DNA of 64,000 nt from NCBI RefSeq assembly GCF_030012215.1, contig NZ_JASCXX010000003.1, positions 62,001 through 126,000 of the forward strand. Reading direction: 5' to 3'. This DNA comes from Anaerobaca lacustris (lineage in GTDB: Bacteria; Planctomycetota; Phycisphaerae; Sedimentisphaerales; Anaerobacaceae). Made by a program: the position numbers and the translations under genes. Numbering within the stretch: position 1 is the stretch's first letter; every line of letters begins with the position of its first letter. The notes below the pieces were generated by a model, which was not told where the DNA came from, did not search any database, and was given only the letters and a program-made list of their open reading frames with translations. Shown here one piece after another: positions 36,041 to 57,451 of this stretch.

Positions 36041-36073
36041 TACGTTTGTCACGGTTCCGTGTCACAGGCTCTT

Positions 36074-36144
36074 TGGGGAATAGTGTAACGGTAGCACGAC
36101 TGACTCTGGATCAGTTAGTTCAGGTTCGAATCCTGGTTCCCCAG
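36074..36144 (+). tRNA. tRNA-Gln (anticodon CTG)
   Basis: The cloverleaf folds by eye: acceptor TGGGGAA with TTCCCCA, D-arm around GTGTAACGGTAGCAC, anticodon stem ACTGA/TCAGT enclosing loop CTCTGGA (anticodon CTG), and T-arm CAGGTTCGAATCCTG. The CCA end is not encoded. Its 3' part is the integration site of the adjacent island. Confidence 0.95.
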
Positions 36145-36146
36145 TT
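36102..36146 (+). repeat. attL-type core in tRNA-Gln (45-bp direct repeat, copy 1)
   Basis: The 45 bp from the anticodon stem through the tRNA 3' end plus two bases are repeated perfectly at 54756-54800. This is the usual crossover region of tyrosine recombinases in tRNA genes. Confidence 0.9.
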
Positions 36147-36760
36147 TCCCCCAAGTTGCGAGAGCGCAGACGTTTATGAAACGCGGATGCGGTGAGTATC
36201 CACCTGGATGCAGGACTGCTTCACGTGTGCTTCACTTTTTTCGACTCGGCAGGGGGGGCCGGGGCCGACCCCCTTCGCCGGACTGGAATCATACGTGTGT
36301 GCAAATCCCGGTACACCCCACCCCGGCATCAATCGGAGTCCCACGGCATATACCCCCCGGTCTGCGTTGGAGTCCCTGACTGAAATCCCCCGGGGGCTTT
36401 GGTTGCATCCCATCGGCGCGCGTGAGGGGATGCCGCTCTGGGGTGGGGTTTTGGAATCAAACGCACGTTACCCCTACCGAGATGCCCTTCACGCGGAGTT
36501 CGTTGCCAAATCCTTAGCCTGGTGCGGGTTCACGATGCTCTCGGCCCTGCTGGGGTGCGTAGCGGCCAGGTCACGGCTGAGATTACCCCGTAGAAGGCCC
36601 CAGGACGGCGCAGGAGCGACGAACGCCCTGTAAAGGGTTCATGGGCTGCAGGAACGAGGAAGAGGGTGGACAATGCGTTGGCCTGCCAGCCCTCGCTATC
36701 GCGTCCTGCACTGAAGACTATGGCCGCACGGCACGGTTGTAGATTCGCACGTCGTCGATC
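36147..36760. other. Left end of the island, no supported gene
   Basis: About 610 bp. It contains a 21-nt sequence (36218-36238) that differs at one base from the 3' part of the integrase gene at 54634-54654. The rest holds only short frames with no recognisable features. Confidence 0.5.
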
Positions 36761-39532: not shown

Positions 39533-42118
39533 TCACTCATCAATTTGGAGCTCCCACCATAGCCTCGGATAGTCCTTGCCTTCGTCCATCCACCAGATGT
39601 CCTCCGTCCCATTGGCCGTCTCGCCCACGAAGTCCCAGCCGGCATCCAGGAACGTCTGGGACATCTGCATCTCAGCCGTGGTCAGGCCAGTGCCACCGGC
39701 ACTGGTGGCTCGGCCTGAAGTCTCGCTGTCCCAGAAACTGCCGTTCACAACCCCTTCACGTTCGAACCACATATCCTCAAAGTATGTATTCTCACCCACC
39801 AGTCCGCCAACATCCATCGAACCACTGACTGAACCGGTGCTATAACACCGGGTGATAATGCCAGGTCTACCATGGCCTAAGAAGTATTCGTAGTTTCCAC
39901 CGACTAATCCACCGACAGAACTATCTCCACTGACTGTACTCATGCTATAGCAGTCGGCAACCTCCCCACCATTTATACCCATAAGTCCGCCCACAAAAGA
40001 CCCTCCACGGACTGTACCAGTGCTAAAGCAGTAGGTCGTGGTATGCGCGAAATGAAGTCCCACCAGTCCGCCGACGCTGTAACTACCATGGACAGCACAG
40101 GTGCTGTTGCATTGACTCATTCTGCCACCCCAGCTCTGCCCCACTAACCCGCCAACGTGGTTATTACCTTTGACCGTGCCTGTGCTGTAACAATTGGTCA
40201 CTTCACCACCCAGAACGAGGAAACCGCCATAGGTACCGACAAGACCGCCAATCCAATCACCTGTCCCCTTAATGTCTGCTGCTACCAAGCCCACATTGGA
40301 GACACTCGCAGCGGCTAACGAACCAAAGAGGCCCAGACGGCTCCCGCCGCTGATCGTCAGACGCGAGATCGTATGGGCGTTGCCGTCGAAGACGCCGGTG
40401 AAAGGAGGCCCGTCGAACCAGTTCCCCGTGTCGCTGGTGTCCGGGGCAATCACGGCCCTGTCGAAGACCTTGCGGCCGGGGAGGTTGGGGTCCAGGTCGA
40501 TATCGGCGATCAGGATGAAGTGCTTGTCGTAGTCGTCGGGCGTCTCGCCCAGCGCGATCAGATCGGCCGCCGTGGCGATCTCGTACGGGTCGTTGGGCTC
40601 TCCCGTCCCGCCGCTGTATTTCTCCCACGCCAGACGCGGATAGCCCAAACCCTCAGCGATCTTCCATATATCCTCGCCGCCGTTAGCCGTCTCGCCCACG
40701 AAGTCCCAGCCAGCATCCAGGAACGTTCTGGCCGTCTGCATCTCGGCCGTCGTCTTGCCCGTGCCGCCGTAACTGGCCGTTTGGCCTGAGGTCTCGATGT
40801 CCCAGAGGCAGTTGGTCACAATCCCCCAGCCTTCCTGCACCGAACCACTTGACCCTATCAGCCCGCCGACATTCGTACCACCCACAATCGCACCTGTGCT
40901 GTAGCATTGGGTCACATGGCCCCAATTCACGCCCACCAGCCCACCGACACACTCGCCCATACCCGTAACCGTACCGGTGCTATAGCTGTTGCCGATGTGG
41001 CCCCAGTGGCCAGAGCCGCCAGCATTATCGCCCACCAAGCCGCCCACGTAGTTATCTCCCGTCACGGCACAGGCGCTGTGGCTACTGGTGATGCCTGAGC
41101 GCACGTGGTTTGCCCCCACGAGACCACCGACTTCGGCACTCCCACTGACGATACCAGTGCTGTAGCTCGCAGTGACATTCCCTCTGCCGTTGCCACCCGC
41201 CAACCCGCCGATACAGTACCCCAAACCGGTTATCCTGACATCGATGACTCCGAGGTTGCCGACCTCGGCACCGTACCCCAGATGGCCAAACAGGCCCAGG
41301 TAGCTTCTACCGACAATCGTGAGGTGCGAGATCGTATGACCATTACCATCGAGGACCCCGCTGAAAGCAGTCCCGTCAAAATCCCATTCGGTGTTCGGGT
41401 CTGTATCCGGCGCGATCACAGCCCTGTCGAAGACCTTCCGCCCGGGGAGGTTGGGGTCCAGGTCGATGTCGGCGGTCAGGATGAAGTGCTTGTCGTAGTC
41501 TTCGGGCGTCTCGCCGAGGGCGATCAGGTCGGCGGCCGTGGCGATCTGGTACGGGTCGTTCGGCTCTCCCGTCCCGCCGCTGTACTTGGTTGCGGCCGGC
41601 TCCGCAGTCGTATAGGTTCGGAAGAACCAATCGGTGCCGGGACGCTCCTGTGCGAAGACGAATCTGCCGCCTCGTTCATAGGTGTTCGAGCCGTACTTCC
41701 AGCCGAATTGCCCCTTGCCCGTGTCGCGCACTCTCAAATCGTAGACCTGTTCGGGAACGAGGGGCATCACCTCGGGGAACTCAACGCGCAGGAGGTCGTC
41801 GAAGCCATCCTCAACCGAGCGTTCGGCCGACGCCAGAACCACGCCGTCCCTGGCGATCTCGACGATCAGCACGTCGTCGCCCCGGCCGGGGTTTACGGTG
41901 AGAATGTCGATCTCCACCGCCGTCAGACTCGTGCACGCCGGGGTGAATGTCTGCCACATGACCGCCTGGCCATCGGCAGTTGGATTGACGTGAGTCCAGC
42001 CGCCACCCCATTCCGGCAGGTTGCTTTGGTCGATCTGCTCGGCCGCCGTGGCGGGACAGACGAGGGCGAGGAACAGGGGGATTGCGACACAGGCTCGGAA
42101 TGTGCTTGGAGTAGCCAT
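39533..42118 (-). CDS. Secreted GLUG-repeat protein, internally duplicated
   Basis: An 861-residue exported protein. Signal peptide about 1-25. Residues about 26-175 form a jelly-roll-like carbohydrate-binding region (LTAVEIDILTVNPGRGDDVLIVEIARDG). Two long modules follow, about 177-499 and 500-861. Each opens with YSGGTGEPNDPYQIATAADL or its near copy, contains several GLUG motifs (VGGLVG...CYSTGTV) and closes with AEMQ...TFLDAGWDFVGETANG. GLUG proteins are bacterial cell-surface adhesin-type solenoids. GGAGG stands six bases before the ATG at 42118; longer upstream frames lack a signal peptide. No anchor is visible at the C-terminus. Confidence 0.85.
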   Translation of the reverse strand: MATPSTFRACVAIPLFLALVCPATAAEQIDQSNLPEWGGGWTHVNPTADGQAVMWQTFTPACTSLTAVEIDILTVNPGRGDDVLIVEIARDGVVLASAERSVEDGFDDLLRVEFPEVMPLVPEQVYDLRVRDTGKGQFGWKYGSNTYERGGRFVFAQERPGTDWFFRTYTTAEPAATKYSGGTGEPNDPYQIATAADLIALGETPEDYDKHFILTADIDLDPNLPGRKVFDRAVIAPDTDPNTEWDFDGTAFSGVLDGNGHTISHLTIVGRSYLGLFGHLGYGAEVGNLGVIDVRITGLGYCIGGLAGGNGRGNVTASYSTGIVSGSAEVGGLVGANHVRSGITSSHSACAVTGDNYVGGLVGDNAGGSGHWGHIGNSYSTGTVTGMGECVGGLVGVNWGHVTQCYSTGAIVGGTNVGGLIGSSGSVQEGWGIVTNCLWDIETSGQTASYGGTGKTTAEMQTARTFLDAGWDFVGETANGGEDIWKIAEGLGYPRLAWEKYSGGTGEPNDPYEIATAADLIALGETPDDYDKHFILIADIDLDPNLPGRKVFDRAVIAPDTSDTGNWFDGPPFTGVFDGNAHTISRLTISGGSRLGLFGSLAAASVSNVGLVAADIKGTGDWIGGLVGTYGGFLVLGGEVTNCYSTGTVKGNNHVGGLVGQSWGGRMSQCNSTCAVHGSYSVGGLVGLHFAHTTTYCFSTGTVRGGSFVGGLMGINGGEVADCYSMSTVSGDSSVGGLVGGNYEYFLGHGRPGIITRCYSTGSVSGSMDVGGLVGENTYFEDMWFEREGVVNGSFWDSETSGRATSAGGTGLTTAEMQMSQTFLDAGWDFVGETANGTEDIWWMDEGKDYPRLWWELQIDE

Positions 42119-44837: not shown

Positions 44838-45704
44838 TCACAGCAGGAGCCGCTGCAAGGTGATCCCGGCCACCTCGCACCAAGCGCGTAATGCTTGCCG
44901 GTGCGTTCCATAGACCATAACTGGGTGGGTAAGTATGTTGACACGCCGCACGTCGTCCACGCCGTCCACGGTCATGGTGAACCCGTTCTGGCATCCTCCG
45001 ATTCCATCCTCGTGGTGTTCGGGACGCATGCTCCGTCGGATGACACCTGTGTCCACTCCGAGGGTCCCCGACGAAAGGAATCGCAGCAATGTCACCGGCT
45101 GATTCTCCCGGAAATCGATCTGCAGGGTCACCCCCTGTTGCGTCTCATGATGGGGCCGAATCCTGTAGGGGTGGGGCGGCTTGTCGAAGCCGTCCATCCG
45201 CGTCGGCACCTGGCAGTGATACTGGCAATACTTGTTGGTAACTGTGTGGATCCCGGGGTTCGACATGAAGCCAGGCCGCCCCAGGAGATAGCTGCTCAAC
45301 ATCAAGGCAAGCGCCGGGTAGATGTCCTTTTCACAGGCCCCACACGTTCCTTCGTCCAGCAACAGGCAGTAGGCCAGGCACTGCACGAGCGAACCATCGC
45401 CCTCTCTCACAAGGCCCAGGCAATCCGTGGTCACGGCGTGGACGCCCGTTTCCTCCATGAGCCGCCGGTTTGCGACGTAGTTCCGAGCCGCCTTAAGGAT
45501 ATCCTCCTCCGAGGGCTCCACAATTTCCCTGGCACGTTCGATGCACAGCGCGGCGATCTCCCGGGCCTCTTCTGAGCCTTCCGCATCGCGCATGGCCTGG
45601 CGCAACCACTCCAGGGGCATGCGGTGTATGACCACGCCCAGGGGATCCAAGGTCTCCTGCCGGTCCTGGGTTCCTTCAATCACGGCCAGACGCGTGTTGG
45701 CCAT
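44838..45704 (-). pseudogene. C-terminal fragment of an L-fucose-isomerase-like sugar isomerase
   Basis: 288 codons open from an ATG that lies at the breakpoint with cas8c. The segment LEWLRQAMRDAEGSEEAREIA...RRLMEETGVHAVTTDCLGL followed by CLAYCLLLDEGTCGACEKDIYPALALMLSSYLLGRPGFMSNP resembles the middle and C-terminal domains of fucose/arabinose isomerase-family proteins, and the later YHCQVPTRMDG...HHETQQGVTLQI matches the C-terminal metal/substrate region. The N-terminal 150-200 residues are missing. It is in a frame one base off from cas8c, so it is not a fused protein; the junction is a DNA breakpoint. A different subfamily from the isomerase at the window start. Confidence 0.7.
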
Positions 45705-45930
45705 TTGCCATACCGATTGTCTTCTTCACCGCCTGTGGGACCAGAAATGACTTGGCCCGTCTCTGTCTTCCCTCGCCTTCATAGGTTGATGAAAGCGAAA
45801 TCGGGGTTCCGTCTTGGCCCAAAGAAACAACAAATGGAATCTCCTTCCATTCGAAACCAGCAGGAGCCATACGCGCTTCGGGGTCGGCTGCCTTTCTGTC
45901 ATAGTACTCCTTGAGTGCCTGGAGGATCAT
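45676..45930 (-). pseudogene. cas8c: cas8c (csd1), truncated after about 75 codons
   Basis: The start overlaps the cas5 stop as ATGA, as in intact type I-C operons. The reading MILQALKEYYDRKAADPEA...FEWKEIPFVVSL...EGEGRQRRAKSFLVPQAVKKTIG matches the N-terminus of Csd1/Cas8c. After TIG the frame runs into foreign sequence and stops at 45676. Intact Cas8c is about 550-600 residues, so the large Cascade subunit is lost. Confidence 0.82.
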
Positions 45931-46643
45931 CGGCGCACCTCCTCGCTTTCGGGATGCGGGACAAGGATCGTTCCACATTTCATCTCGGGGCGAAAGAACA
46001 TGGGCTTCGGGTCGGCAGGGTCGGAAAAATCGAGATCGTACAGCATCCAGCCCAGGTCATGCGTTTCCGGGATAGGCGGCGGGGTTTTGGCATCGCCGTT
46101 GCTTAGCAATCGAAACTCGCAAGAGAATTCACGACAGCCAAGATAAGGCTGGTTGAAACACTGGCCCTTGCTCGCACGGCGATCGAATATGGCGGCATAT
46201 TTCGCCTGGGTTTCATCTTGCCGGACATCAGGCTGCCGGAGCACCTCGGTCTCTTCTGTATCGACCAGCCACTCCGGTACAGGGTTACAGGCGTGAGCAC
46301 GCTGATCCGGGGGAATGAAGTCGAACTCGCCATGCAAACGATACCTGACGTCACGCAGGAGCAATCCCGCCCGTTGCTGGCGCTCATCCTCCACGAAGAT
46401 GCCCTCAGAACGTGGCGATGCGACTTTGCCGACCTCATTGCGGCGGACGGAAATCCAGCGAATCGGGGCCAGCACCTCGATGCTCGTGAGACGCCAGCGA
46501 ATTGCTGGTTTCCATAGGATGGCCTCGAAGATGGCGCGGGCGGCTGACGGCGTAATCACGTCATAGCTGACCCGCTCGACCTTCATCTCAGGGCGAGTGA
46601 AGCAAGCGTAGGGTCCGCTCACTTCCAGACAGAAGCCCTTCAT
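45927..46643 (-). CDS. cas5c: Type I-C Cascade subunit Cas5
   Basis: 238 residues with the Cas5d/c pattern: LEVSGPYACFTRPEMKVERVSYDVITPSAARAIFEAILWKPAIRW at the N-terminus, NEVGK and RHxxxLRDVRYRLHGEF-type segments in the middle, and the GCREFSCEFRLL region. In type I-C systems Cas5 replaces Cas6 and cuts the pre-crRNA. It appears full length. It starts 24 bp after cas3 and its stop overlaps the cas8c start. Without cas7 and cas8c it cannot form Cascade here. Confidence 0.9.
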   Translation of the reverse strand: MKGFCLEVSGPYACFTRPEMKVERVSYDVITPSAARAIFEAILWKPAIRWRLTSIEVLAPIRWISVRRNEVGKVASPRSEGIFVEDERQQRAGLLLRDVRYRLHGEFDFIPPDQRAHACNPVPEWLVDTEETEVLRQPDVRQDETQAKYAAIFDRRASKGQCFNQPYLGCREFSCEFRLLSNGDAKTPPPIPETHDLGWMLYDLDFSDPADPKPMFFRPEMKCGTILVPHPESEEVRR

Positions 46644-46667: not shown

Positions 46668-48311
46668 TCATACACATGTCAAATCCTCGATGGGAAAACC
46701 GTCTCGAAACACGTCGAGGCCGATGGATTCACTGTAGATCGAAACAGGACACTGGGCGAGGAAGCCCGGCCAAACCTCCTCCAGCAGTCCGTCACTCAGC
46801 ATTCTGTCAGCCAGCCGGACGGGAAGATTGACTGTGTAGCGCTGCAGTCTCCGCATCAAGCTTCGATATGGACCCGTGCGTTGCAGTTCGCCAATCAATG
46901 CTTCCCCTTTGCGGTAGTGGACGAGAACCGGCCGCTGAGCCTGGTCATCGATTAGTCTGAACTGGTCCCCGACGGAGCGAAAGGCGATATCCAGAATCCT
47001 GGGATCAGACGGAGTCAGCCGCTTGAGGAATCCCTCGCCGGTGTCATTGACCTTAGAGTAGAACAGATCGAAATAGCGGGTGAAGGACTCCGGTGCCTGT
47101 GCATCGAACCCAGGTAGCGCGTGCAATTCTCGGGTGGTGCATTCTCCCTTGTGCAGCAGTCCTCGTGGCACAGACTTCGGTGGGACAAAGACCATGACTT
47201 GGCCTTGGTATGCCAGTTTCCCCTCACGATTACATCGGCCTGCGGCTTGAGCGATAGAATCGAGCCCCGCCAAGGCACGATAGACCACGGGGAAATCGAT
47301 GTCCACGCCTGCCTCCAGGCGCGTACGCAGGGTTTCTTTCTCGGGATCGAGATTGCTGTGGTGTTCTACTACATTCTCAGGGCCAAAGATTTCTGCCAGA
47401 GTGGCTGCCGTCTGTTCGATGATGCTCGTATGGGGTATGACATAGATCACGCGATGCTTGCCATGCCGAATCGCATGATCGAGAGCGAACGCCATTGCGG
47501 AGAGCGTCTTGCCGCCGCCGGTGGGGACAGTGAGAGTGAAAAGTCCAGAAGGCCGCGACGCTGCCTTGAGGCAGGCAGTCAGGATTTCCTGGCGTACTCT
47601 GTTGACCGGCGTGTGCTCGCAGCGGGTTGTCATGTCCGCCATGTAACGATCCAATGGGGTCTTCAGTTCTGCCAGACTGCGACTTTTCACTCGATACCGT
47701 GCCTGTTCCGGTTCAATGAAAGCCTCGGTGTCGAGAAAGTCGGCATCGACCAGACAAGAGAAGAGTATACGCACCCAGAAGTGGAAGTTCTCTTTCTTCA
47801 CGAAGACAGGCAATTGGGACAAGGGTCGGTGCTCGGGCTTCAGGCCGGTGGCGACCGTGCGAATGCGCTCGAAATCTACCTTGCCTTCTTCCAAACGCTT
47901 CTGCAAAGCACCCATCCCTCCATCACAGGTGTGATAGTCGGGCAGTCCAGCATGATGCCCGGCGACGAGATAGCTCAGAATGCGCCCCAATGGACGATTG
48001 TGCTGATTGTGCACTTCTTCGGCGAGCGCCGTGCCCGCGCTGGAATGGTTGACTCTGTGCCCTCCTGTCCCATCGTATTCTTCATCGTCAATGTGATTCT
48101 CTCGGAGCAGATATGCTCGGAATTCATCCGCTGCTTTGCCAAGATCGTGAAGCATGCCTGCATTCCAGGCCCAGTCGGAAGAACCGAATTTCTGAGCAAA
48201 CCCCGATGCAAGCGCGGCAACTGCCCTCAAGTGCATATCAAGCCGCTGCCATTCCGATTCCGGTTTGCCGGGAAGGCTGTGTGCATAGAACTGCTTTTCT
48301 GACTCTGACAT
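46668..48311 (-). CDS. cas3: cas3 nuclease-helicase with internal in-frame deletion
   Basis: 547 residues; type I-C Cas3 is normally about 730-800. The HD nuclease domain is present (His55-Asp56 in MLHDLGKAADEF, then HRVNHSSAG and GHHAGLPDYH). The helicase starts normally with PTGGGKT (Lys268) and continues through VVEHHSNLDPEKETLR, then jumps at about residue 332 (RTRLEAGVDIDFPVVYRALAGLDSIAQAAGRCNREG) straight to motifs V and VI. The DEAH-box and about 200-250 residues are missing. The frame is kept. The protein cannot be a working helicase. It is the first cas gene of the remnant, 24 bp before cas5. Confidence 0.88.
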   Translation of the reverse strand: MSESEKQFYAHSLPGKPESEWQRLDMHLRAVAALASGFAQKFGSSDWAWNAGMLHDLGKAADEFRAYLLRENHIDDEEYDGTGGHRVNHSSAGTALAEEVHNQHNRPLGRILSYLVAGHHAGLPDYHTCDGGMGALQKRLEEGKVDFERIRTVATGLKPEHRPLSQLPVFVKKENFHFWVRILFSCLVDADFLDTEAFIEPEQARYRVKSRSLAELKTPLDRYMADMTTRCEHTPVNRVRQEILTACLKAASRPSGLFTLTVPTGGGKTLSAMAFALDHAIRHGKHRVIYVIPHTSIIEQTAATLAEIFGPENVVEHHSNLDPEKETLRTRLEAGVDIDFPVVYRALAGLDSIAQAAGRCNREGKLAYQGQVMVFVPPKSVPRGLLHKGECTTRELHALPGFDAQAPESFTRYFDLFYSKVNDTGEGFLKRLTPSDPRILDIAFRSVGDQFRLIDDQAQRPVLVHYRKGEALIGELQRTGPYRSLMRRLQRYTVNLPVRLADRMLSDGLLEEVWPGFLAQCPVSIYSESIGLDVFRDGFPIEDLTCV

Positions 48312-51600: not shown

Positions 51601-52683
51601 ATGCCCAGAATTCCACGATATTCACGGCGGCGGTCACCAGATTCTGGCCAGTTGCCGATGTCGGCGGCCGATACGGGGGCCGGGATCGAGGCACGGGGTC
51701 TTGCCGGGCTGGCCCGGGACGTGGCCGGCGGGGTAGGTAATATCGCTGCGATTGCCGAGCGGATGGAAGTGCGCCGGGCGGAAACGGAGTACATTTCGAC
51801 CAAGGCGTTGCAGAGCCGATTGAACGCCGAGTTCCTCGATGAGCTGCGTCGTCAGCCGGTGCCGGAGAATGTGACCGATCCGCAGAAGTACTATCAGGAG
51901 ACGTTCGACACGCACATCAAGAGCCTGCACAGCCTGTCCGCCAATCGTGCAACGACCGCCCGGTCCAAGCGGGCCATCGAGAACATGACGATGGAGGAGA
52001 CGGAGCGGTTGCGTGGCGAGGTGATGAAGGTGGCGTGGGGCAAAGAGCAGGACCGATCCCTGGCCATGCTCGAAGCCAGTACAAATGAGTATTGGCAGGC
52101 TTATCTTCTCACGGGCGATGTGCGGAATATCGCCAGGATCGGCGCATCAATTCACATGATGTTCGAGAACGGGGTAATCGACGCAACCACAAAGACCAAG
52201 ATGCTGCTGGACTGGGACAAGAAGTACCAGGTTGAACTGGTCAGGCGTGAGATTACCGCCGCCGTCAACGACCCGGACAACCCGGAGGCCCAGGAACGAG
52301 CCAGACAGAAGATTGAAGACTATCCCGGCCCGGAGCGTGAAAAGATGCAGTTCCGGGACGAGTATCGCATCGATACGCACATTCGACAACGTCAGCGGGA
52401 GGAACTGGCGGCGAAGGATATTGACGAGGTCATGGGCATGGCCATGAACATGGACATGAACATCGAGGATATCCAGGCGGAGATTGAAGCCAGGGAGAAT
52501 CTCAGCCCGACCAAAAAGGTAGAGGCGTTTCGTTTGGCGACGTGGGCGTACGATCTCTGGCGTGGTGAGAGCGTCAATCCGTTCGTTGAAACACAGAACC
52601 ATAAGGCTCTGGCCGATGTCGATTATGATCTTGACCACAACACGGGCAAGATCACAAGTCTTCAGGATATCGAAGACAGATAG
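51601..52683 (+). CDS. Phage internal-virion-like protein, first part, ending at in-frame TAG
   Basis: 360 codons of an alpha-helical, charged protein (MPRIPRYSRRRSPDSGQLPM start, later long helices such as RREITAAVNDPDNPEAQERARQKIEDY). The start and the helical composition recall the large internal virion/ejection proteins of podovirus-like phages, but no specific family is certain. The frame stops at TAG 52681-52683; the same frame reopens at once and runs to 53265, so a single 555-codon gene is interrupted by one nonsense codon. CAG to TAG is one base change. Confidence 0.65.
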   Translation: MPRIPRYSRRRSPDSGQLPMSAADTGAGIEARGLAGLARDVAGGVGNIAAIAERMEVRRAETEYISTKALQSRLNAEFLDELRRQPVPENVTDPQKYYQETFDTHIKSLHSLSANRATTARSKRAIENMTMEETERLRGEVMKVAWGKEQDRSLAMLEASTNEYWQAYLLTGDVRNIARIGASIHMMFENGVIDATTKTKMLLDWDKKYQVELVRREITAAVNDPDNPEAQERARQKIEDYPGPEREKMQFRDEYRIDTHIRQRQREELAAKDIDEVMGMAMNMDMNIEDIQAEIEARENLSPTKKVEAFRLATWAYDLWRGESVNPFVETQNHKALADVDYDLDHNTGKITSLQDIEDR

Positions 52684-53265
52684 TCTGAGGACGGCAAGGT
52701 CAACTGGAGCCTGGTGGAACATCGGCGGCTCAAGAAGAAGTTCCAGGACATGCAGAAGCCGACCAAGCTGGAAGAGTACAGCGCCAGCCACCCGACTGCC
52801 AAACAGTACTTCTATCGGCTGGATCGGCTCTATCGAGAAGAGGGCACCGGGGCCTACGACGGGGATGTCAAGGACGGCAAGTACAAAGAGTACAACAACA
52901 AGCGATTCGCGTTGGAGAAGGTGCTGATGAAGCACTGGGGGAACTCGGAGATGATGGAGAAGGAATTTCAGAGCTTGGTAAAGCCTGAAATAGAAGAAGA
53001 GGCCAAGCGGACACTGAAGCAGTTCATGAGGGACTGGCTCTTCACGTTCTCGCCGGCGGCAGCGACGCTAAGGAGAAAGCCCGTGGTGGATGAGTTGATT
53101 CAGAAGAACGAGCCGAAAGACGAGAATCAGGAAACACCCAAGGCCGAGCCGCCGGCATTGACGGAGCCGGATGATGAAGATGAGTTCCTGCAAACCGTCC
53201 AGACCATACCGGACGATGCGCAGGCCCGTGCCTATTACAATCAGTGGGAGCACAAATTCCGATGA
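52684..53265 (+). pseudogene. Continuation of the virion-like gene after the TAG
   Basis: Same reading frame as the gene before it. It continues SEDGKVNWSLVEHRRLKKKFQDM and ends in an acidic tail (ETPKAEPPALTEPDDEDEF). An internal ATG at 52714 could restart translation. The stop TGA overlaps the next ATG as ATGA, showing that the two were once a coupled phage gene pair. Confidence 0.65.
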
Positions 53266-54737
53266 CACTCCCGACCTTTGACGAGATACGACGACAGGAG
53301 CCACGAACTGACCTGACGGCCATGCCGGGTGGATTGCTGCCGGAGCCGAAAGAGAGGCGTTCGCTTCCGACGTTCGAAGAGATTCGTGCCGGCCGGTCGG
53401 TGATGACGCCCGCCGACGGTCCGAAAGAGGCGACCCTGGCCGACATACCGGACGCAGATCTGCCGGAGAGTATTCGGGACCAGGGTTCACGTGTACGCAA
53501 TGCTGAATTCTATGCCGAGCAGTTCGGGCTGCAAGGACTCTCGATTGACGATGCCTACGACTACGAACCACAGCTCAACGAGCTGATCTGGGGACCCGGC
53601 GTGACGACGGAATCCGCCAACGCTAAGATCGCCGCCTATCGCAAACAGGCCGTCGAGCAGAGCAAGAGTCTCTTCCAAGAGCTGGGGTCAGCCTTCCGGG
53701 AGACAGTAGAGGCTCGTGGTGAGATCTGGGAAGCGGCCGAAATGACGGTCTGGGGCACTGGGCCGTACGGCGAAGAGAGCGTGGTCAAGGCCTGGCGGGA
53801 CGTACTGAAGTACAACCTTCTGCGTCTGACATCTCTGCGTGGCTTGATTACGTGGCCCCGTCCGGAAGGCGGCACGCCGTATGGCGCTGAAGATACGATG
53901 CAGATGCGGTGGAGCAAACCAGAGAAGACGGCCAAGGAGGAACTGACCGAAACCGTCGAAGGTCTACCGGGTCTTGCCGAGGCTGTAGTTCCTGCGGGAA
54001 CAGAGACACTCGAAACGCTGATCGACTTCGCCTTTGTATATCCGAAGTTGTTTCAGTTGGCCGGCGTTCCGGCCAAGGCCATCGGCAAGATCCCCAGGGT
54101 GCAGAAGGCGATCAAGGCACTCGGTGGCACGGAGTGGGTAACGGGGCATGAACGGGCCTTGATTTATCGCCTGGCGCTTCAAGTCGGCCTGCGGTCGTCG
54201 GAGATCGCTCGTCTTCGCGTTCTGGCCTTCGACTTCGATGCAAATCCCCCCAGCGTTCGCATCGAGTCGTCGGACACCAAGGGCAAGCGAGCCGCCGATT
54301 TGGTCCTCATGGCCGAGACGGCAGAGGCCATACGGGAGTTTCTCAAGGACAAGGCGGCCACGGACAAAGCCTTTGCCATGCCGCACAAGTCGAACGTGGC
54401 CGATATGCTACGGGGCGATTTGGAAGCCGCTGAGATCCCGTACACCGACGCGGCAGGCCGAGACATGGACTTTCACAGCTTGCGGCACAGCTTCATCACG
54501 CATCTGGCGTTGGCCGGGGTCCATCCTGCCGTCGCTCAAAAACTCGCACGACACCGGAGCATCGAACTGACGATGAGGTGCTACACGCACGTGTTCCACA
54601 AGTCCGAATGCGAGGCCATAGACTCGTTGAAACGCTTCACGTCTGCTTCACTTTCCGACGCACGAAGGCTGTCGTCGGCGGACCTTGGCGGACACAAGAC
54701 CGGTGATTCCAGGTCAGAAACGCGGTTATCTGCATAG
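53262..54737 (+). CDS. Chimera: virion-like N-terminus fused to tyrosine integrase catalytic domain
   Basis: 491 residues in one frame. Residues 1-about 285 (MTLPTFDEIRRQEPRTDL, then SLPTFEEIRAGR) look like a second phage structural protein and follow the upstream virion gene by an ATGA overlap. From about 290 (TEWVTGHERALIYRLALQVGLRSSEIARL) the sequence is a tyrosine recombinase catalytic domain with Arg311, His405, Arg408 (HSLRHSF), His431 and nucleophile Tyr441. The normal integrase N-terminal core-binding and arm-binding domains are absent. The end lies 19 bp before the right 45-bp att repeat, the usual place for an island integrase. Likely inactive as an integrase; a deletion or assembly join made the fusion. 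Confidence 0.8.
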   Translation: MTLPTFDEIRRQEPRTDLTAMPGGLLPEPKERRSLPTFEEIRAGRSVMTPADGPKEATLADIPDADLPESIRDQGSRVRNAEFYAEQFGLQGLSIDDAYDYEPQLNELIWGPGVTTESANAKIAAYRKQAVEQSKSLFQELGSAFRETVEARGEIWEAAEMTVWGTGPYGEESVVKAWRDVLKYNLLRLTSLRGLITWPRPEGGTPYGAEDTMQMRWSKPEKTAKEELTETVEGLPGLAEAVVPAGTETLETLIDFAFVYPKLFQLAGVPAKAIGKIPRVQKAIKALGGTEWVTGHERALIYRLALQVGLRSSEIARLRVLAFDFDANPPSVRIESSDTKGKRAADLVLMAETAEAIREFLKDKAATDKAFAMPHKSNVADMLRGDLEAAEIPYTDAAGRDMDFHSLRHSFITHLALAGVHPAVAQKLARHRSIELTMRCYTHVFHKSECEAIDSLKRFTSASLSDARRLSSADLGGHKTGDSRSETRLSA

Positions 54738-54755: not shown

Positions 54756-54800
54756 GACTCTGGATCAGTTAGTTCAGGTTCGAATCCTGGTTCCCCAGTT
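54756..54800 (+). repeat. attR-type core (45-bp direct repeat, copy 2)
   Basis: A perfect copy of 36102-36146 (3' part of tRNA-Gln). The rest of the tRNA is missing here, so it marks the island's far end and is not a tRNA gene. Confidence 0.9.
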
Positions 54801-54859
54801 CTCCTCTTCCGTCGCCCCGAGTGCGGTGCGTCTGTTCCCGCGGCCTGAACGTGAAACGG

Positions 54860-57451
<2,592 letters not shown>

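Follow-up and report, generated by a model that had tools for sequence, protein, structure and literature searches.

An orphan reading frame joined to the 3′ part of an integrase gene: a probable deletion scar at the right end of a tRNA-Gln-integrated element of Anaerobaca lacustris

The window analysed here is a stretch of 64,000 nucleotides of the Anaerobaca lacustris genome (contig NZ_JASCXX010000003.1, positions 62,001 to 126,000). Positions 53262-54737 of its forward strand form a single uninterrupted frame that translates into 491 amino acids. This fused frame is real, and its codon-position base composition is coding-like in both halves. The N-terminal part, about residues 1-292 (53262-54137, +), is an orphan that has no credible relatives and is probably phage-derived. 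The rest, about residues 293-491 (54138-54737, +), is the 3′ remnant of an integrase gene, as defined by a PF00589 match and by alignment with relatives. The boundary lies near residue 293, at about nucleotide 54138, and thus within the interval 54100-54150 where a sequence-only reading of the window had placed the joint. No parental sequence of the N-terminal part was found. A single-sequence structure model of the whole fused protein had a mean pLDDT of 38.6 and was set aside.

The ATG of the fused frame shares bases with the stop codon of the preceding frame (ATGA), and translational coupling is therefore possible. The upstream gene (51601-53265, +; translation across the stop) is one frame interrupted by an in-frame TAG at 52681-52683 and is thus itself broken. 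The coupling to an upstream virion gene that had been proposed is compatible with this overlap, but the virion identity of the upstream gene is unproven. Use of TAG as an amino-acid codon was considered and rejected: the fused frame itself ends in TAG and would read on into the attachment core that follows it.

The only Pfam match of the fused frame is to PF00589 (Phage_integrase; residues 299-445, E 1.3e-17), and it covers positions 25-169 of the 172 of the profile. PHROG 216, an integrase family, matches residues 280-461 (E 1.1e-22), and among solved structures the closest relative is a XerC-like tyrosine recombinase (4a8e), with a match that starts at residue 298. All six active-site residues are present (R311, K340, H405, R408, H431 and Y441), and five of them (R311, H405, R408, H431 and Y441) are invariant in an alignment with 24 full-length relatives. 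In most comparisons, the alignment with full-length relatives begins at residue 293-295, and these relatives have about 160-300 amino acids, mostly 200-250, ahead of this point. Their catalytic domain opens with 'RRALEPDEIRRLLEAT....RFGM', a stretch that is missing from the window protein; this places the break inside the catalytic domain, near nucleotide 54138. No SAM-like core-binding domain was matched by Pfam in the fused frame, and integrase homology starts only at about residue 293. According to Pfam and the alignment of relatives, the protein thus has no arm-binding domain, no core-binding domain and no first catalytic helix. The earlier statement that the N-terminal integrase domains are gone is borne out. 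The recombinase set had also been called complete, and this holds for the active-site residues but not for the catalytic domain, which enters PF00589 at position 25 of 172 and is without its first helix. Core-binding and catalytic regions have been described in all tyrosine recombinases (survey PMC8138268). Since the core-binding region is lost, and with it the parts that hold the core site, the fused protein is most likely inactive. A search of the rest of the genome did not recover the missing 5′ part of the integrase gene; it returned only the 5′ part of a different integrase gene on contig C10 and weak matches on contig C21.

Searching the halves separately identified the C-terminal part as a tyrosine recombinase but gave no credible relative of the N-terminal part. 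Residues 1-289 have no Pfam match and no convincing PDB relative, and among PHROGs they reach only phrog_1999, a family of unknown function, at chance level (E 0.055). Neither they nor the upstream frame have a relative in 50,697 phage records or in 392 phylum-wide genomes. None was found in IMG/VR either, searched with exact-peptide seeds that detect only close relatives. The upstream frame likewise lacks Pfam or convincing PDB relatives, its PHROG matches are at chance level, and it has a single weak match among the related genomes (G180). Residues 1-285 had been read as a virion protein, and no known virion family was matched in Pfam, PDB, PHROGs, the phage records or IMG/VR; this label, a guess from position and style, is unproven. 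From the setting, it is plausible that the N-terminal part was drawn from a phage structural module, a view that no search supports. The N-terminal part contains the motif LPTF(D/E)EI twice, at residues 3 and 35. A degenerate ATG-x-LPTF(D/E)EI pattern retrieved from viral contigs only short frames and one unrelated protein of 398 amino acids. Weak matches to the N-terminal part in three of 198 related genomes (G143, G054 and G155; E ~0.004-0.006) lie in frames that look unrelated, and they were discarded as spurious.

The integrase domain occurs in 107 of the 198 related genomes, and the N-terminal part is not credibly present in these 198 or in the 392 phylum-wide genomes. Homologues that combine both parts over their full length, which would speak for a genuine domain combination instead of a scar, were sought in both genome sets and in phage records, and none was found. 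IMG/VR did not yield the layout either, again with exact-peptide seeds and within the reach of close relatives.

The fused frame is located at one end of an integrated segment. An intact tRNA-Gln (CTG) gene, detected with ARAGORN at 36073-36145 (+), is the integration target at the left end. The 3′ part of this gene forms the attL core, a repeat of 45 bp (36102-36146, +), and an exact second copy in direct orientation forms the attR core (54756-54800, +), which starts 18 nt past the stop codon of the fused frame. The two repeats are 18,654 bp apart, giving an element of about 18.65 kb. Just inside each repeat is a 21-bp motif, GCTTCACGTNTGCTTCACTTT, made of two GCTTCAC units 11 bp apart. Its left copy, GCTTCACGTGTGCTTCACTTT, is at 36218-36238 (+), and its right copy, GCTTCACGTCTGCTTCACTTT, lies at 54634-54654 (+), within the integrase remnant. 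Motif counting gave exactly two occurrences in the 5.73-Mb genome with up to 2 mismatches allowed. Moreover, when the 200 nt inside each end were compared, the best match was 20/21; about 1,500 random pairs never exceeded 17/21. A second short motif, GAAACGCGG, has two exact copies in the window, one near attL (36178-36186, +) and one near attR (54717-54725, +). Judged from their sequence and placement, the 21-bp motifs have the appearance of arm-type sites from a single attP, to which the integrase would bind. Because the shared motifs resemble the arm sites of one attP, the 18.65 kb between the repeats probably result from one integration event. The fused frame thus looks like what is left of the integrase gene of an 18.65-kb integrated element, at its right end, with both ends of the element derived from one attP. 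Two features of a grounded element are found here, direct att repeats at a tRNA gene and matching sequence inside both ends. These repeats and the shared end motif are new relative to the sequence-only reading.

Inside the element lie genes for a subtilase, for GLUG-repeat and FIMAH proteins and for a PAS histidine kinase, together with a type I-C cas set in decay, and a short relic, probably of phage origin, adjoins attR on the inside. In Cas3 (46668-48311, -), an HD domain and the start of the helicase are followed directly by the C-terminal part; this is an in-frame internal deletion of the helicase middle. Of Cas8c/Csd1 (45676-45978, -), just 72 of the 588 model positions remain, and a frame that overlaps it (44838-45704) shows weak similarity to a portion of a sugar isomerase. 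The repeats found near the cas set included no recognisable CRISPR array. In addition, the gene of a GLUG-repeat protein (39551-41587) contains an internal duplication of about 1 kb, the copies being 75-91% identical.

Altogether, the best reading of the frame at 53262-54737, and a likely one, is that of a scar which a deletion left in a grounded element. We infer that the partner is of phage origin, that DNA was deleted and that activity was lost, and propose the following course. The integrating element would probably have been a temperate phage. It would have inserted into the 3′ end of tRNA-Gln (CTG), with the 45-bp attL and attR as copies 18.65 kb apart and the integrase gene on the right, directed toward attR. 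Subsequent decay would have removed the DNA between the upstream gene, itself probably of phage origin, and the integrase gene. The deletion would have taken about the first 200-300 integrase codons, which encode the domains for arm and core binding and the first helix of the catalytic domain, and the leftover pieces would have been joined in frame by chance. The product keeps the active-site residues and is most likely inactive, which would leave the element grounded and unable to excise itself. A deletion onto the 3′ part of the integrase gene is well supported, because integrase homology ends abruptly inside the catalytic domain, because the gene sits at an intact attachment site next to a neighbour with a nonsense codon, and because the same architecture occurs in no genome examined. 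The decay of other genes of the segment (Cas8c, Cas3) also counts for a scar. So does the nearest integrase relative (G071, 65% identity; L042:10911-12174), itself frameshifted: its N-terminal frame gives a weak SAM-like hit, and the gene that precedes it encodes an AAA-ATPase and no virion protein. Against it stand the open frame, since a random join would be in frame and stop-free about 1 time in 3 at best, the coding-like composition of both halves, an orientation of the core relative to the integrase that is rarer in the family, and the rearranged state of the region. Of the initial proposal of a deletion or a mis-join between a phage structural module and the integrase gene, the deletion is thus well supported and no genome examined has the layout, while the structural-module origin of the partner finds no support in the searches.

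Outside the element, the sequence on the left side of tRNA-Gln shows synteny with contig C14 of a related genome (G005), and that on the right side of attR with contig C121 of the same genome. In four congeners (G001, G002, G003 and G005), clpB adjoins a common block, which in G005 is a che operon (cheB, cheD, cheR and cheA); in the present genome this block is on contig C19 (G000:C19:22079). Here clpB, at the attR flank (54801-54870), is parted from the che block, unlike in the four congeners. Since the clpB of the right flank lies next to the che operon in relatives, the region has been rearranged. This comparison of gene order places the event at attR or close to it, at some time in the lineage, and the history of the region may be more complex than a single deletion. 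In congeners, tRNA-Gln and clpB are on different contigs or in different neighbourhoods, and there is thus no simple empty site for comparison. No rest of the phage was seen near the che operon on C19, by DNA comparison and with frames read by eye.

An assembler could also have joined, at about 54130, an N-terminal part and an integrase 3′ part that come from different molecules. The genome is a draft of 5.73 Mb in 117 contigs (97.94% complete, 2.2% contamination), several genes of the segment look internally deleted, and the neighbourhood from tRNA-Gln to clpB is not conserved in congeners. We nevertheless hold such a mis-join to be unlikely: one contig of 296 kb carries both att repeats and both arm-like motifs in register, the reading frame is kept over the joint, where no long repeat is found within 30-60 kb of the window, and the missing integrase 5′ part does not turn up elsewhere in the genome, given that the C10 gene is a different integrase and the C21 matches are weak.

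It could also be that the 45-bp repeat is the attachment site of another element, of which the integrase remnant was never the integrase. Members of this integrase family usually adjoin a tRNA gene, and in 21 of 22 cases the 3′ end of the integrase gene faces the 3′ end of the tRNA gene. The window integrase has the opposite orientation, the rarer one in the family, and its closest relatives (L012-L014) have no tRNA beside the integrase gene. However, in one relative (L036) a tRNA 3′ fragment lies behind the integrase gene in the same orientation as in the window, and the right copy of the shared 21-bp motif sits inside the integrase remnant. We therefore give this alternative a small chance.

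That selection maintains a functional protein, with an N-terminal phage domain and a recombinase catalytic domain, would fit the 491-codon open frame and the retention of all six catalytic residues. It is nonetheless very improbable, given the loss of the first catalytic helix, the stop in the coupled upstream gene, the decayed surroundings and the absence of this layout from the 198 related and 392 phylum genomes and from phage records. That a phage virion protein carries a recombinase catalytic domain, delivered with the particle, is hardly credible.

Such a scar would have parallels. Grounded, or cryptic, prophages with decayed integrases (review PMC6379469) likewise keep their att repeats, have lost most phage genes and have a damaged integrase; in the window, the remnant is not just truncated or mutated but shares one reading frame with another gene. 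In the Aux3 element of pandemic Vibrio cholerae, the att sites are kept and the integrase is truncated (PMC7721734). That integrase is cut by an IS element in its C-terminal tail, directly behind the catalytic tyrosine, whereas in the window the N-terminal domains are lost. With tyrosine recombinases and phage integrases (PF00589; PMC8138268), the remnant shares the catalytic pentad, the nucleophilic tyrosine and the position at a tRNA attachment site, and it differs from them by the lack of the core-binding domain, the arm-binding domain and the first catalytic helix. As a scar of a mobile element the fused frame seems unremarkable, and the case brings no new principle. It illustrates that a decaying integrative element can yield an in-frame chimera, which automatic annotation would name an integrase or a new domain combination. 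With attL and attR located and candidate arm sites at hand, the element now has defined borders, which make its grounding testable.

Finally, the integrase frames of many relatives extend into the neighbouring tRNA sequence. The overlap of the 3′ end of the integrase frame with the tRNA, almost always on the opposite strand, is found at L002, L015-L017, L021-L024, L026 and L028-L031, and also at L033-L035, L037 and L039; some of these integrase frames cross the whole tRNA gene.
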